A stretch of DNA of 34,903 nucleotides from a virus: the IMG/VR virus record IMGVR_UViG_3300030329_004362, positions 1 to 34,903 of that record; one strand, written 5' to 3'. Each line of letters opens with the position of its first letter. Positions within the stretch are counted from its first letter, which is position 1. This document shows, in pieces, positions 5,711 through 14,381 of this stretch. Both the position numbers and the translations under genes were made by a program. The notes under the pieces are model-generated. The model did not search any database. It was given only the letters and a program-made list of their open reading frames with translations, and was not told the DNA's origin.

Positions 5711-5786
5711 GGGGGTGCTAGGTTCGATTATAGGGTTTCCCTTTCTATTGCCTTATAATACGGAGGTTCGATTCCTCCCACCTCCA
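5711..5786 (+). ncRNA. Minimal tmRNA-like / tRNA-like RNA
   Basis: The 76 bases fold as the tRNA domain of tmRNA. Acceptor stem: GGGGGTG (5711-5717) with CACCTCC (5779-5785), seven pairs including G3-U70, then A as discriminator (5786). G3-U70 is the alanyl-tRNA synthetase identity pair, and the stem differs from typical tmRNA (GGGGCTG/CAGCTCC) at one pair only. T arm: GGAGG-TTCGATT-CCTCC (5762-5778), with a canonical T loop. There is no D stem; CTAGGTTCG (5718-5726) resembles the D-loop region of tmRNA. A nine-pair helix, 5727-5735 with 5751-5759, replaces the anticodon arm and has a 15-base loop without a tag frame. CCA is not encoded. A degenerate tRNA or an attachment-site remnant is the alternative. 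Confidence 0.65.
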
Positions 5787-5823
5787 CAAGTTTTATTTAT
5801 CAACTCATCAAGAAAGGCACACT

Positions 5824-6018
5824 ATGACAGACAGAATATATGTAAGAGGGATTCTTCGAGATATGTTGAATCACTATTACGATAATATTGGAAAACCATC
5901 AAAATATACTGGCGACACTATAACACCAAAAATGATATCAAGGGTAACAGAAAGATATTTAGAATTAGGAGGTAAACTTACTCGTGAGGAATGTGAGGCT
6001 GATAGGGAAGGATACTAA
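5824..6018 (+). CDS. Hypothetical protein, 64 aa
   Basis: The start follows AAGAAAGG with suitable spacing. The product is helical and charged and ends in an acidic segment that overlaps the next gene by 35 bases. No family is recognised. Confidence 0.6.
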   Translation: MTDRIYVRGILRDMLNHYYDNIGKPSKYTGDTITPKMISRVTERYLELGGKLTREECEADREGY

Positions 6019-6199
6019 AAGATGTGAGTGTTGTGGTAAGTATGGTTATCATACTTATTTTTTTAAATGGTATTCATCGGTAACAGATGATTATTTATGC
6101 ACAATATGTTTTAAATGTGCTAAAAGAGAAGCTTTTGGAACAAATTATAAAAACAACAAAAGGTATAAAGAATGGGTAGAAGAACTAAAGCAAAAATAA
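5984..6199 (+). CDS. Zinc-binding protein, 71 aa (GTG start)
   Basis: The GTG at 5984 has AGGAGGT about 11 bases upstream, inside the previous gene, and no better ATG lies before the first Cys cluster. CECC (residues 14-17) and CTICFKC (about 39-45) can hold one or two zinc ions. The end is basic. It could bind nucleic acid; function unknown. The next start lies inside its end (28-base overlap). Confidence 0.6.
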   Translation: MRNVRLIGKDTKRCECCGKYGYHTYFFKWYSSVTDDYLCTICFKCAKREAFGTNYKNNKRYKEWVEELKQK

Positions 6200-7256: not shown

Positions 7257-7677
7257 AGAAAGCTTAAAAGATGGACAGAAAAGCGAACAAGCTATCCTGT
7301 CTATAATACAAAAAAAATATCCAACTGCAGAAATGATGCAAGGTTATTATAAATACTACGATATTTTTGTATCTGAAAAAAATATAGGTGTTGAAGTTAA
7401 AAAAGATGTTAAATCTCAGGAAACTGGAAATCTGGTAGTTGAAGTTGAATTTAATGGTTATCCATCTGCATTGTCTACTACAAGAGCAGATTATTGGGTT
7501 TTTGATGATGGGGAATCTTACATTTGGATAGAAACAGACAAATTAAGGCATATTTGCAGCGAATTTAAAGAGATTAGAACATTTGTAGGTAATGGTGATA
7601 CTAAGCCAAAAAAAGCCCATTTAATACCTAAACATATTATAAAGAATTATTCCTGCCTAATTACCAAACTTCCATAA
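7243..7677 (+). CDS. PD-(D/E)XK endonuclease-like protein, 144 aa
   Basis: I place the start at ATG 7243, behind GGAAAGAAGA; an upstream frame extension runs into the previous gene. Visible active-site pattern: Glu15 in GQKSEQAI, Asp40 in YYDIFV and EVK (51-53), the PD-ExK arrangement. Its substrate is unknown; recombination, DNA repair or host DNA breakdown are possible. Its last 17 bases overlap the end of the convergent tail gene, so the early and late units meet here without a terminator between them. Confidence 0.7.
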   Translation: MSNFKESLKDGQKSEQAILSIIQKKYPTAEMMQGYYKYYDIFVSEKNIGVEVKKDVKSQETGNLVVEVEFNGYPSALSTTRADYWVFDDGESYIWIETDKLRHICSEFKEIRTFVGNGDTKPKKAHLIPKHIIKNYSCLITKLP

Positions 7678-8869
7678 TTTTCATACTTATATTATATGTC
7701 TTATATGCCTTCTGAGTTATTTTAAAACTCTTTTGATCTAAAACGCATATTGCAAAATCAGATGGATTTGATGAATCATTATTAGGTTGGAAAATAAACC
7801 TCTCACCGTTTCCTACAAAATTCAATACTTTAGCTATAAATGATGAATCATCCTCAAGAGTATATTGAAATTCACTACCATTATCTGTTAAATCATTGTT
7901 AGTATTATATTCTGTGTTTGTTGAATTATAATTAAGATGATTGTTAGACATGTAGTTAGATGCAAATAACTGATTGTCACTAATATAGCTAAATTTAAGA
8001 TCCCAAATACGCCTTCCATTTCTAGTTATACTTCCTCCAGGTTCTCCAATTTCCCAAGGATTATATTCCCCCCATTTAGGAGCACCTTTATATCTTGTTC
8101 TAGTTAATGTAGAACCACCTAAAGTTTTAATAGAGCTATATCCATCGAATTGTATTTCCATGTTTAGAGCTAAATCTGGAGATATGGGCATATCATAATA
8201 ATGTCCAAAGCAAAGAGAATTTACAGATGCATTCCCGCTAATGCTTGTTAAGAACGCTTCGTCTTTAAACCAACCCATATTAAAAGAGATTCTATCACTT
8301 TTTATATTATCGGGATCGGTAATTTCTACAACATCGCCATTTTCATCGTATTCATGGGTTGCCCCGTATGAAAAATCTGTTCCGAATATAGAAAATCCTG
8401 AATTTGGAAGTTGTGCAAAAGTTCCTTCTTCCCCTTCAGTATAAGCTCTTTCTGCATTTATAATCGAGGTAGGGCTTACTAAAGCTCCTCTCCATAGATG
8501 ACTTCCTAATTCAGCATCATCGCTTTCTCTTTTCATGAAATTAATCCTAACAGATCCAGGATCAGAACCGTCAAAGGTTTGATTTATATTATGTCCTAGT
8601 ATACCTACATAATTCATAGAGTCTAAACTTTTTCTACTTATAAATGATTCCCAAGCTAAATCTATATATAAAGCAGTTCCTCCTAGAACATTTTCTGTAT
8701 TCATAGATACTTCACATGGTAGAGATGGGTCTAATCCCACAAAGCTTCCTTTTTCTATATAAGTTCCCACTCCCTGATATCCATATATTTCTTTTATCAA
8801 TCCCAATGATTCCCAATATGATAGGTAATCTATATAAAATCTTGGGGTTGCTACATTTTGATAAGCCAT
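7661..8869 (-). CDS. Putative tail-tip protein, 402 aa
   Basis: This is the last gene of the late unit, right after the HiPIP protein and the hub gene, and its ATG overlaps the preceding stop. The sequence is rich in aromatic residues, Gly, Ser and Asn, with the beta-strand character of virion proteins, and ends with a compact strand-rich part (FAICVLDQKSFKITQK). No catalytic motif is seen. Location at the distal tail or a host-recognition role is inferred from gene order. Confidence 0.6.
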   Translation of the reverse strand: MAYQNVATPRFYIDYLSYWESLGLIKEIYGYQGVGTYIEKGSFVGLDPSLPCEVSMNTENVLGGTALYIDLAWESFISRKSLDSMNYVGILGHNINQTFDGSDPGSVRINFMKRESDDAELGSHLWRGALVSPTSIINAERAYTEGEEGTFAQLPNSGFSIFGTDFSYGATHEYDENGDVVEITDPDNIKSDRISFNMGWFKDEAFLTSISGNASVNSLCFGHYYDMPISPDLALNMEIQFDGYSSIKTLGGSTLTRTRYKGAPKWGEYNPWEIGEPGGSITRNGRRIWDLKFSYISDNQLFASNYMSNNHLNYNSTNTEYNTNNDLTDNGSEFQYTLEDDSSFIAKVLNFVGNGERFIFQPNNDSSNPSDFAICVLDQKSFKITQKAYKTYNISMKIMEVW

Positions 8870-9534
8870 TATTTAATTCCTTTCTTCTGCCAACTTTTAC
8901 ACCAACCTTTATTTTGTATAGGAGCTTGCCAAAGTTCGCAATATTTATTCTTCCAATAAGAGCATGTTTGGCAAAATTGATGCATTTCTAATTTTTCTGA
9001 ATAGTCAATATAACTTTCAGGTAAATCTTTATTAATGATTCTATTTAAATTTGTATAATTCCTTTTCTTAGCAGGGATTAATGGAGCTTCTGTTTCTAAT
9101 TCATCTGGTTCTATCAAAATAGTATCATCTTCAAAATTAGTTTTTGAATAATTCGTATATAAATCTGTCTGATCGTATTGAATAAATTTTGGGGATAGTA
9201 CCTTCCCTTTCCAATTATGTATTTTTAATGATTTTACCAATTTTAGATTACCTGTAAAGCTAAAAATTAAATCATTTTCAAATTTACAATTAGGGGGAAA
9301 ATCAATAATTACTGAATTGCGAGAAGAATAATGTCTAAATTTAGCCCCAATGATAGATTTAGATAGTGATATATTTATATATCCATCATATTTAAAAGAA
9401 ATTGATTTTGGATTTGTTTCATTAAATTCTAGATGAAATGTTCCCATTCTACGAGATTTTGAGGTATTATAAAAACCACCTGAACTAGAATTTACTTGTA
9501 TAATATTATCTAATATATTTTCATCTTTTATCAT
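8869..9534 (-). CDS. Tail-tip protein with C-terminal HiPIP-type [4Fe-4S] motif, 221 aa
   Basis: The N-terminal 180 residues are beta-rich and unassigned. The end carries four cysteines, C188-x2-C191-x7-C199-x12-C212, and the segment from C199 (C, six residues, I, three residues, G-W-C, two residues, W) matches the high-potential iron-sulfur protein signature as I remember it. It follows the hub gene with an ATGA overlap, the position where lambda encodes its tail-tip protein gpL, which also holds an iron-sulfur cluster. The cluster may stabilise the tip or act as a fold lock; electron transfer is not suggested by the context. Confidence 0.75.
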   Translation of the reverse strand: MIKDENILDNIIQVNSSSGGFYNTSKSRRMGTFHLEFNETNPKSISFKYDGYINISLSKSIIGAKFRHYSSRNSVIIDFPPNCKFENDLIFSFTGNLKLVKSLKIHNWKGKVLSPKFIQYDQTDLYTNYSKTNFEDDTILIEPDELETEAPLIPAKKRNYTNLNRIINKDLPESYIDYSEKLEMHQFCQTCSYWKNKYCELWQAPIQNKGWCKSWQKKGIK

Positions 9535-12500
9535 TGTGCACTTTGTTCTTGCTGTGTTTCTTTAGTTAATTTAGGAGCTTTTCTAAGCCTTTGGAAATAT
9601 CTTTCTGAATCACTCCAAGGATAATATGGAGGTGTTGCAGACAATCTCTCTCTATATAAAATTGAATCTTTTAGAGTAACGCTATTAGTTCCATTAATAT
9701 CCATTTGCTTTATTTGCAATCTTGTATATTCTGAATTATTATAATAATAATCTTCAATATTAATCCAGTCTTGGTCATCAAAAGGAAACCCTTGATATAT
9801 ATTAATTCCACCATCCCAATGATAGAGCCTTCTTGTATCTCCACATGGAGGCGGAAGATATTCAGGAGATAATTTATGAAGCTGTATACAATTTAATTTA
9901 ACCGCTTTGTCTGTTTTTGTTATAGATTCAATTAAAAATAAAGGATAAATAACTTGACCATTTCTAACCTGAGTTTTTGTATAATCTTCTCCAAAAGCCT
10001 TAACATTATTTATTAACTTATCAAACTTAATAATATCTCCAACTTCAAGATTTAAATATGTAATATCTAAATCTACAGATATTTTTGTATGTTGATTACA
10101 ATACCACATTGATAAAAATTCCTGTAGTTTGTATGCAGTTTCTCTATCTTTTATATATTGTGCTTCAAATATTAATTTAGTGTCTTCTTCATTTAAATTA
10201 AAATTATTTAATCTGTAGCCATATTCCCCATGTTCAGGATGAATAAATCCTAAATCACCATCTCCTAAAAAATCTTTGCAACTAAACCATCCTGTATTAT
10301 CTCTAAAATTATCTGTGGCATAATCTTTATTATACATTACCATAACTTTAGTTTTCAATTCATCAATTTTACTTCTAGTGAAATTATACTTTAATATTCT
10401 AGTATGTTCTACTATTCTAGTATAATCTACTGTTTCGTCATAATCATCTTTTATAGTAATAAGCCCTAAAGTATTCTGACCATTGATTCTTGGAAATATT
10501 TTTGTATTAGTGCATATTGCTTCTATAAGCCTTTTAGAATCAATTTTATTCGTTACCGAAAACCCTAATTTAAAGGAATTATTTTCAGAAGTTGCTGTAG
10601 AAAACTCAGAAGAATTTATGCTTTCTGCAGGCAGATTTAATTCAGTTATCACTAAATCTTTTATTACATCTGCAGGGTTTTCTATAATCTGAGATCCAAT
10701 CATTCTACCTTTTGTAGATAGGTAAAAATCAGAATCTGTTAAGTTTTCAAAATCTGCAACATGCCTTATGTAATTTTGGTATAATCCTATATTGCATACA
10801 AAATCAAGTGCAGATGAACTATCTTGTTTACTGGTATGTATTAAAACATTGAAACTATTAAAATCGCCAGGCTCTCCCCATATAAAATGTTGGTCATCTA
10901 AAGAACCATCAAAAAGGCTAACATCGTGTTTAGACTCAAGAGAATCGTATGTAGTTGTTTGCCCTTCATATAGGATAGTTGGATCTAAATTAGAAACATT
11001 ATCAAACAATAGAGGGGTTGTATTGTTATCATTTCCAGTTACAGTTACATCATTAAATGTTTCTTTAAATAGACTTGTAGTGGTTCTTAAATAATCACTC
11101 TCATTGTCAGAGTTATATTCATCTTCATTATAATCATAAGCACTTGCATACATTTCAAAATAATTACCATCGCCTGAATCTCTACCTTCCTCAGGTTCAA
11201 ATTGGGTAATTTCAACTTTTCTCATCCAGTATGCATGATGAGCTAAACTTATGTTGTCAGATATATCTACATCAGGGAGCTTAAACTTAAATCCAATTCT
11301 TTTTCCTTTAGCTGTTTCCTCATCTATTTTAGCTCTCAGGGATAGAAAATCGTTATCTGTTATAAATGTGGTTTGAGTACCTTCCCCAAACCCTATGTGC
11401 TGCAATCTATTGGATGAAGGATTATTTACTTGATCTGAACATAAACCATATAAAGGTTGTAAAAATCCTGCTTTTGTATAATTATGTAAACTTTTTATAC
11501 TTAAAGCAAACCATCTATGCTTACCTCCATCATACCACTTACTGCTATTTTTCATAGAGTCCATACAAGCATATCTTCCATTATGATTTTTAAGTAAAGA
11601 ATTTCCATTTTCTTCTATTCCGTTCCAAAAGGCTCTATATGTAGGCTTCATCCAAGTGCTGCTATCGCCATTAAAATCAAATCCTGTTCCTTGTCTTTCA
11701 TAAGGAATGTATAATGGAAAACCACGAAGATCAAATAATTCAGATAAAGCATAATGACCCTTTACGCCAGAAACCATTCCTGTTTCTAAATCTTGAAAAT
11801 TTTCTCTTTCTATAGTTTGATCAGTAAAACTACCAGTATTCATGTTAAGAGTGGCATCATAAGTTTCTGTTGCTATTCTATCTAATATATAGTCAGGTAT
11901 TGTTCCACCTCCATCAGGTGCACCGTCACCTGATTGTGGGGGCATCCATTGAAAAGAACCCCAATCCATAGCATTTGGACAAAATGTAACAGTAATATAT
12001 CTAAATATGCAATGAGATGCCTTTGAAAGTTCTATTCCAGTACCCCAATTTTCGTTATTGACATCATTCCAATCAGCATCTTTATGTTCCTTAACTCCAA
12101 ATATCCAAATAATATTTCCATACGGGCTAACACCTGTTATTGGTGGCTGAATTGTATATGCTCCTGAATTCATATGACTATAATTTGTTAGGCTGGCTGT
12201 ACTATAAGATTCTTTCCCGTTCATTTTCCAACCCTCTCCAAGAATCAAGATACTATCTTGTGCAAAAGTAAATCTATAAGTTGGGACTGCATACCTTACT
12301 TGTGCACTTCCACCATTTCCTGCATATACTGACTCACTATAAATAGTTATATAATTATCTTCTGCTGATGCACAGTTATTATATTCCCAATCATTTGATG
12401 TTAATGGAGGGTCAGTATAATGTGGGTCAGATGTACATTCTATATTTTTCCATTCTTCTTCAGAATCAATATGCCCTCCACTTATTGCATATTCTGGGTC

Positions 12501-14381
12501 AACTATAGCTTTGTCCATTTGAGGATTTGTTATTCTGCATTGATTACCATAACAACTCCAATCATCATTTGTATAAGTAAAATAATCAAAGTCAATAATT
12601 CCAAGATAAGCCATCCTTTCCATAATAGTTTTAGCATCAGGAAGTTGTATAAAGGCTAACCCAATCTCATCTGCATGTAAATATTTAATTCTGTTTAGTG
12701 GCGATTGATAATCATCTTGAAAAGAATCATATTCGCTTGGAGTTTTCCATCTTCTAACCGATCCACCACTACCAGTTGCAATATGAACACCATTATTTGT
12801 TTTTGTAACTACTCCAAGCTGCTTAGATTGCCCTGATTCACATCCATTATAATCTGGTTCGCCATCACTATCATAAAGAGGGTAATCGTGAACTTTATAA
12901 GTTAAATCACCACTTCTATACCCTGTCCAATCTATTCCTCTATCTTGACCTGCATACCAAAATTTTTCTGGATGTCCATCGTCTGGAGCTTCGGGTATTC
13001 CATAGGGAACATTCTCGCCATTAACTTCATCAAAAGGATATGCATATCGTAGCCAATTTGAGCCAGTCGCCTTACCTTTAAATCTAACAGTTTGTAAATC
13101 AATAGGATCAAAATCAAATATATCACCACCAACAGTAGTTTGTCCTCCATTAATATTAGGTCTTTGAACAGTTTGTGTATGTAGATTAGTTAAAGCATAC
13201 CATTCATTTAAATTTTCTTCTTTCCAAGTGCTCCACTTATCTCCTAAAACATCTTCTTCCCCTATATAAATATCGCTTTCTTTATCGGCATCAGGGATTT
13301 TAGAAAAAGTATTATTCGCAGATACTCCAAATACATTATCTCTTGTATCAAAAGAAGCATTAGGGTTAGATATAGTAATGTCGCCTGCTATATTATCGTA
13401 ATCACCACCATCTATATCAGATGTTGGGTTTTCATCATACCAGTCCCAATATGCACTACTTGAACCAGTGGGAAATTTACCATCCTTTCCTGTGAAATCC
13501 ATAGCAGAAGGGTATCTATAAAATTCTCCTTGAAATTCATTATTGGAAAATGGGTTTGAAGGCATCGTGCTATCAAATATTAATTGGCATTTTATATGAG
13601 TGAAATCATCTGAAATGTCATAACATTTTGTTTCATCAAACTCTCCTGGATTTAAAAAGCCAGTTTCCGTAGCATCGTCATAGATATGAACATAGCTCCC
13701 TTTATTAGCTCTTAAACTTATAATTCTGTTATCAATATTTTTTTCTTCTTTTATCTTATTTTGAATTGCTGCCCTATGTTCTAAGCCTGTTATATTGTGA
13801 ATATCATCACATATAACTTGGAAATCTAAATCATCTGGTGTTGCTTTCCATAAAACAGCAGGAGCATAATCATGGTCACCATAAGTAATAGGTATATATT
13901 TATTTATATATTTTTTACTATAGACAAATTGTGTATCAGCTAAATTTGCTACAGGGACATCTTTTTGTAGCTTTTCTTGTGTGCTATCTTCTAGTTGTAT
14001 TTTAATAGTTTTGTCATCGTGAGTAAATCGTCTAACATTAGCCCTGTAAACATGAAGACAATCTGCAAGAGTCTTAGCAGTTTGGCTTTTCCAATAAATA
14101 TCTATAGGCATATTCATTAAATCTAAAGTAGATAATTTATCACTTAAATCTTCAAGATTGGATAAGGTTATAGACACATTACTTATTTTAAACTTCCTCG
14201 ATTCAAAATCTATGGATTCTTTTATATTTGATACCTTAAGATTATGATCTTCAAAAATCTGCCCATCAAAAGATTCTTTATACTGAGATATAAACATCTC
14301 ATCGCCTATACTTATAATAGGATAAACATTTATATTTCTACCCTGTATATCTTTTTGAAAAATCTCTGGTAATGTTTTCAT
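9531..14381 (-). CDS. Large tail-tip / baseplate-hub protein, 1616 aa
   Basis: It lies directly behind the tape measure gene, as tail-tip hub genes do. The first 145 residues (including KFKISNVSITLSN and FTHDDKTIKIQLED) look like the N-terminal hub domain of phage tail proteins, and the last 400 residues contain a second hub-like part (LEVGDIIKFDKLINN and LIESITKTDKAVKLNCIQLHKLSPE). Between them are about 1000 residues rich in Asp, Asn, Gly, Tyr and Trp, with no repeat I recognise; they probably form the exposed, host-specific part. The protein is longer than lambda gpJ (1132 residues). The ATG overlaps the tape measure stop. Confidence 0.75.
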   Translation of the reverse strand: MKTLPEIFQKDIQGRNINVYPIISIGDEMFISQYKESFDGQIFEDHNLKVSNIKESIDFESRKFKISNVSITLSNLEDLSDKLSTLDLMNMPIDIYWKSQTAKTLADCLHVYRANVRRFTHDDKTIKIQLEDSTQEKLQKDVPVANLADTQFVYSKKYINKYIPITYGDHDYAPAVLWKATPDDLDFQVICDDIHNITGLEHRAAIQNKIKEEKNIDNRIISLRANKGSYVHIYDDATETGFLNPGEFDETKCYDISDDFTHIKCQLIFDSTMPSNPFSNNEFQGEFYRYPSAMDFTGKDGKFPTGSSSAYWDWYDENPTSDIDGGDYDNIAGDITISNPNASFDTRDNVFGVSANNTFSKIPDADKESDIYIGEEDVLGDKWSTWKEENLNEWYALTNLHTQTVQRPNINGGQTTVGGDIFDFDPIDLQTVRFKGKATGSNWLRYAYPFDEVNGENVPYGIPEAPDDGHPEKFWYAGQDRGIDWTGYRSGDLTYKVHDYPLYDSDGEPDYNGCESGQSKQLGVVTKTNNGVHIATGSGGSVRRWKTPSEYDSFQDDYQSPLNRIKYLHADEIGLAFIQLPDAKTIMERMAYLGIIDFDYFTYTNDDWSCYGNQCRITNPQMDKAIVDPEYAISGGHIDSEEEWKNIECTSDPHYTDPPLTSNDWEYNNCASAEDNYITIYSESVYAGNGGSAQVRYAVPTYRFTFAQDSILILGEGWKMNGKESYSTASLTNYSHMNSGAYTIQPPITGVSPYGNIIWIFGVKEHKDADWNDVNNENWGTGIELSKASHCIFRYITVTFCPNAMDWGSFQWMPPQSGDGAPDGGGTIPDYILDRIATETYDATLNMNTGSFTDQTIERENFQDLETGMVSGVKGHYALSELFDLRGFPLYIPYERQGTGFDFNGDSSTWMKPTYRAFWNGIEENGNSLLKNHNGRYACMDSMKNSSKWYDGGKHRWFALSIKSLHNYTKAGFLQPLYGLCSDQVNNPSSNRLQHIGFGEGTQTTFITDNDFLSLRAKIDEETAKGKRIGFKFKLPDVDISDNISLAHHAYWMRKVEITQFEPEEGRDSGDGNYFEMYASAYDYNEDEYNSDNESDYLRTTTSLFKETFNDVTVTGNDNNTTPLLFDNVSNLDPTILYEGQTTTYDSLESKHDVSLFDGSLDDQHFIWGEPGDFNSFNVLIHTSKQDSSSALDFVCNIGLYQNYIRHVADFENLTDSDFYLSTKGRMIGSQIIENPADVIKDLVITELNLPAESINSSEFSTATSENNSFKLGFSVTNKIDSKRLIEAICTNTKIFPRINGQNTLGLITIKDDYDETVDYTRIVEHTRILKYNFTRSKIDELKTKVMVMYNKDYATDNFRDNTGWFSCKDFLGDGDLGFIHPEHGEYGYRLNNFNLNEEDTKLIFEAQYIKDRETAYKLQEFLSMWYCNQHTKISVDLDITYLNLEVGDIIKFDKLINNVKAFGEDYTKTQVRNGQVIYPLFLIESITKTDKAVKLNCIQLHKLSPEYLPPPCGDTRRLYHWDGGINIYQGFPFDDQDWINIEDYYYNNSEYTRLQIKQMDINGTNSVTLKDSILYRERLSATPPYYPWSDSERYFQRLRKAPKLTKETQQEQSAQ

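Follow-up and report, generated by a model that had tools for sequence, protein, structure and literature searches.

Does the four-cysteine motif at the end of a small phage tail protein mark a true relative of the high-potential iron-sulfur proteins (HiPIPs), and what would such a module do at the tip of a tail? The question is raised by P0001, a 221-aa protein encoded beside the tail hub gene of an uncultured virus contig; we use "the window" for the whole stretch of 34,903 nucleotides that was analysed. The features of the window that bear on this question are the following.

8869..9534 (-): P0001, 221 aa, with a cohesin-like N-domain, a linker and a C-terminal four-Cys HiPIP-like module
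9148..9489 (-): predicted cohesin-like beta-sandwich of P0001, residues 16-129 (AF2, Foldseek, VIA)
9004..9147 (-): linker of P0001, residues 130-177, low confidence (pLDDT <60)
8887..9003 (-): HiPIP-like module of P0001, residues 178-216 (Tyr178, Cys188, Cys191, Cys199, Gly210-Trp211-Cys212, Trp215)
9531..14381 (-): tail hub homologue, 1616 aa
9642..9773 (-): degenerate dockerin-like repeat near the hub C-terminus, hub residues ~1537-1580
7661..8869 (-): conserved 402-aa 'MAYQNVG..PRFYID' protein, directly downstream of the P0001 ORF
14381..16909 (-): tail tape measure protein, upstream of the hub (PHROG 3779, E 1.6e-13)

The gene order (tape measure, hub, P0001), together with the dockerins found on the hubs of relatives, gives good support to the placement of this protein beside the hub, at the tail tip, in the initial annotation. 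The P0001 stop codon and the ATG of the following gene overlap, and the same arrangement is found in several relatives. A fifth cysteine of the protein, Cys83, lies within the N-domain. Elsewhere in the window, the phage record contains a tRNA-Gly (tcc) gene at 5711-5787 (+) and, at 5984-6199 (+), a 71-aa ORF with several Cys at CxxC spacing, perhaps a zinc ribbon.

The cysteines originally pointed out, Cys188, Cys191, Cys199 and Cys212, are all present in the 221-aa ORF, in the arrangement C-x2-C-x7-C-x6-I-x3-GWC-x2-W. Residues 199-215 (C-ELWQAP-I-QNK-GWC-KS-W) match C-x(6,9)-[LIVM]-x3-G-[YW]-C-x2-[FYW], which we take to be the PROSITE HiPIP pattern, and the upstream C-x2-C (Cys188, Cys191) completes four potential cluster ligands of the HiPIP type. 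Proteins of this class carry a [4Fe-4S] cluster with a potential of +50 to +500 mV. The DNA pattern of the motif has one match in the window and none in 100 shuffles. HIPIP was the sole Pfam suggestion for the protein; its score of 11.4 bits falls under the gathering cut-off of 22, and we therefore class the protein as HiPIP-like and not as a Pfam HiPIP. In a PDB search with the single protein the two best matches were HiPIPs, both weak (1hlq, E 0.11; PioC, E 0.72). HiPIPs conserve a Trp before the last Cys and an aromatic residue two to three positions after it (PMC7462912), and both features are found in P0001, as Trp211 and Trp215. Tyr178, which goes beyond the motif first described, lines up with a Tyr present both in PioC and in the phage modules discussed below.

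PioC has the spacing C-x2-C-x8-C-x12-C (Cys22, 25, 34 and 47; PMC7462912). With PioC and other HiPIPs (PF01355), the window module shares C-x2-C, C-x12-C with GWC-x2/3-aromatic, and the upstream Tyr; it differs from PioC in having seven rather than eight residues between the second and third Cys, and so is one residue shorter. It differs from HiPIPs in general in its fusion to a cohesin-like phage domain and its score under the Pfam cut-off, and in that we saw no export signal on the 221-aa protein.

Single-sequence searches with P0001 in viral contigs and cultured phages returned no close relatives, nor did a search of viral contigs with the hub return any relatives. Viral contigs were also searched for a DNA pattern of fixed spacing, C-x2-C-x-[FY]-x5-C-x10-GWC-x2-aromatic (the x7 form). 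This matched 46 stretches, 35 of them in frame, and 32 of those 35 have a Tyr some 10 residues upstream of the first Cys, a residue that the pattern does not require. The x8 (PioC-like) form matched 104 stretches; 80 were fetched, of which 70 were in frame, 68 with the Tyr (100/105 for the in-frame x7 and x8 matches together). Of 16 stretches matched by the x9 form, 8 were in frame; the x6 form matched 25, none in frame, and can be used as a further negative control. When the x7 pattern was run on 257 Gb of cellular genomes, 36 stretches matched, five of them in frame, and none had the Tyr. The in-frame rate and the Tyr, compared between phage and cellular scans, show that the module represents a real phage protein family and not a pattern artefact.

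From 30 of these phage modules, the window protein being left out, we built a profile. Among 12,286 ORFs of the window and related loci it retrieved only the P0001 ORF (E 1.2e-10, 39.6 bits; next match E 0.5). Against the PDB it matched PioC (E 3.7e-14), 3h31 (E 1.8e-7) and 1hlq (E 2.9e-6), with 1isu and other HiPIPs at weaker E-values; its non-HiPIP matches were three L3MBTL3 entries (E ~0.005) with only 20 residues aligned. Because the modules had been picked by pattern, two controls for selection bias were run. None of the 36 chance pattern matches from cellular genomes scored above 16.0 bits, where the window ORF reaches 39.6, and the window remains favoured in those columns that the search pattern did not cover (p ~0.002; 0.011 without the Tyr). 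At the level of sequence, the match of this ORF to phage modules and HiPIPs is not due to chance; with the phage relatives as a bridge, the HiPIP resemblance first proposed proves real and statistically strong.

Structure prediction was confident for the N-domain, which it renders as cohesin-like, and too low in confidence for the module to place its four Cys. AF2 on the module alone reached a pLDDT of 50; the Foldseek search with this model gave no matches, a result that, given the poor model, says nothing against a HiPIP fold.

Iron-sulfur clusters have been described in other phage tails. Lambda gpL bears a [4Fe-4S] cluster on the outside of the tail tip, the function of which is still open, and its ligands (Cys173, 182, 205 and 212; C-x8-C-x22-C-x6-C) belong to the hub-ring protein (PMC10721106). 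An iron-sulfur cluster has likewise been reported for the hub of roseophage R4C (PMC10276861). The domains of gpL, RcGTA gp13 and the R4C hub resemble the window in that a four-Cys module is part of the tail hub or adjacent to it. However, the gpL module is part of the hub-ring protein, whereas the C-x2-C-x7-C-x12-C of the window is carried by a separate adaptor ORF, and the Cys spacing rules out a gpL-type cluster.

The "180-residue phage domain" to which the module was said to be fused is present, and on the basis of Foldseek and VIA comparisons we now read it as a cohesin-like fold. The AF2 model has pLDDT values of ~82-96 over most of residues 31-120. Its first three Foldseek matches are cohesins (2xdh, E 9.4e-4; 2vo8; 5n5p), as are all of the first 23 VIA matches (Z 8.6-9.5, rmsd 2.7-5.2), and in this predicted model the N-domain has the cohesin jelly-roll fold. 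Neither P0001 nor five relatives gave a sequence match to Pfam cohesin, and for this reason the domain is named cohesin-like.

The hubs of relatives end in Dockerin_1 (Pfam E up to 2.2e-19). By regular expression, a dockerin is found at the hub end, directly before the cohesin-like gene, in 27 of 35 related loci, and in one relative (G042) the hub dockerin and the cohesin-like protein are fused. The canonical dockerin of the relatives is absent from the window hub, which has a degenerate first repeat only. The combination of fold and adjacency is circumstantial, and suggests that cohesin and dockerin may pair in these tails. The system has in common with cellulosomal and non-cellulosomal cohesins and their type I dockerins the predicted fold of the N-domain and, in the relatives' hubs, genuine Dockerin_1. 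Unlike known cohesins, the window domain has no Pfam cohesin match, occurs in a phage tail and adjoins a hub without a recognisable dockerin. In loci L163-L176, the hubs terminate in type I dockerin repeats and the cohesin-like protein comes immediately after, a possible cohesin-dockerin coupling in the tail tip.

Related loci were found via the terminase and via the downstream 402-aa gene only. Of 48 related records, 17 contain homologues of the hub (9531-14381), for the most part at both ends, and relatives carry a domain homologous to the N-domain at the same position in the locus. A PROSITE-type HiPIP pattern has no match in the ~3.2 million residues of the six-frame translation of related loci; the Cys module, found in no related tail locus, is thus specific to the window lineage. 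It sits where the relatives have their C-terminal tails, which are basic or low-complexity, often end in GGKY or GGSY, and in many relatives include an HxH...MTG...H-like conserved stretch. The version 'YHxH....MTGxxHxxxS' (L174, L202, L204, L206, L211, L226), perhaps metal-binding, is absent from the window protein.

In other phages, HiPIP-like modules are found at the N-terminus of a portal-like protein (L313), the C-terminus of a portal protein (L293), the N-terminus of an XkdF-type head protease (L334), the N-terminus of a LamG tail protein (L296), and as short proteins near terminase genes (L034, L294, L041, L336, L342), where the stand-alone modules are miniproteins of 50-60 aa, those of L034 and L294 being 54 aa long. 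Modules such as those of L034, L294, L313, L334, L296 and L293 share the Tyr, the four Cys, the GWC and the aromatic pattern with the window, but they are either joined to a portal, an XkdF protease or a LamG tail protein or free-standing beside terminase genes, whereas that of the window is carried by a cohesin-like tail adaptor, a combination not seen among the other phage modules found. Four other module queries of the phage record collection returned a hypothetical protein of cyanophage S-SRM01, an uncultured phage record lacking annotation, and nothing else. The weak head-protein match, to PHROG 5955, was rejected: none of 17 records with phage modules matched it. The module recurs in many other uncultured phages, in genes for capsid and tail, and has apparently gone undescribed there. 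The open-access literature, to which our search was confined, yielded nothing relevant on HiPIPs in phage virions, on a HiPIP-like form of iron-sulfur tail tip, or on cohesins or dockerins in phage tails.

The best explanation, to which we give a probability of roughly 0.55, is that a cohesin-like tail-tip adaptor carries a HiPIP-like structural cap, one that probably holds a [4Fe-4S] cluster. The N-terminal domain would pack against the hub's end, gripping in most relatives a calcium-binding dockerin at the C-terminus of the hub; in the window its partner would be the degenerate dockerin remnant. The C-terminal 40-45 residues would constitute a minimal HiPIP-like module, close to PioC in spacing and most likely folded around a single [4Fe-4S] cluster, with Cys188, 191, 199 and 212 as ligands and with Trp211, Trp215 and Tyr178 as a shield. 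Built in the host cytoplasm, it would probably form a compact structural cap that replaces the flexible tail of the relatives.

Homology among phage modules cannot tell iron from zinc, and a cohesin fold alone is no proof of binding. Zinc is the main rival: the four Cys could bind Zn2+ in a structural zinc knuckle, the HiPIP likeness being convergent or the metal having drifted. Four Cys in a short module are also typical of zinc knuckles, and the phage modules lie in structural and packaging genes, where electron transfer is unneeded. However, the likeness exceeds Cys spacing, extending to GWC-x2-aromatic, an aromatic residue following the second Cys and a Tyr some 10 residues ahead of the first, and the PDB matches of the profile are HiPIPs and not zinc proteins, save the short L3MBTL3 alignments. 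We consider zinc unlikely, though a serious contender. A module without metal, its Cys forming disulfides or the whole being a decaying remnant of an acquisition, would fit its single occurrence in the tail-adaptor family and its poor modelling. This is improbable, as the Tyr, the four Cys, the GW and the two aromatics are all intact, in an open frame that overlaps the next gene as in relatives; with its key residues preserved, a decaying module is not expected.

The redox-sensitive tip suggested in the initial annotation would have the cluster switch at the cell surface and trigger or gate infection, or draw on iron-uptake systems. HiPIPs are indeed electron carriers (PMC7462912), but related tail loci do without the module, so that this tail machine does not depend on it, and the majority of the other phage copies adjoin head and packaging genes or are fused to them, a setting in which surface redox sensing is implausible. 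An electron-transfer role is for these reasons possible but unsupported, and we judge a redox-active tip to have little chance of being correct. The oxidation-resistant fold lock raised in the same annotation is likewise speculative.

The module may be one case of a wider phenomenon, which we put forward tentatively: phages could hold a widespread, undescribed family of minimal HiPIP-like [4Fe-4S] modules as virion building blocks, in portal, head protease and tail proteins and in terminase-side miniproteins, one of which this phage would have placed on its cohesin-like tail-tip adaptor. Cluster-bearing virion parts would then have originated repeatedly, the gpL form being just one of them. 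Most of what is known of virion iron-sulfur clusters comes from a single tail-tip domain, that of gpL and its kin (PMC10721106); if the modules hold clusters, HiPIP-like domains would be a second, independent and far more portable phage form. The cohesin-like adaptor beside hub dockerins would, for its part, exemplify cellulosome coupling in a phage tail. At ~50 aa, the modules are small enough for direct expression and testing. In L294 (6428-7374), the 54-aa HiPIP-like miniprotein overlaps a PAPS reductase gene and adjoins a terminase, and the small hypothetical protein of S-SRM01, a cultured Synechococcus phage, matches the phage HiPIP-like modules with E 1e-3 (L397, 4959-5162).
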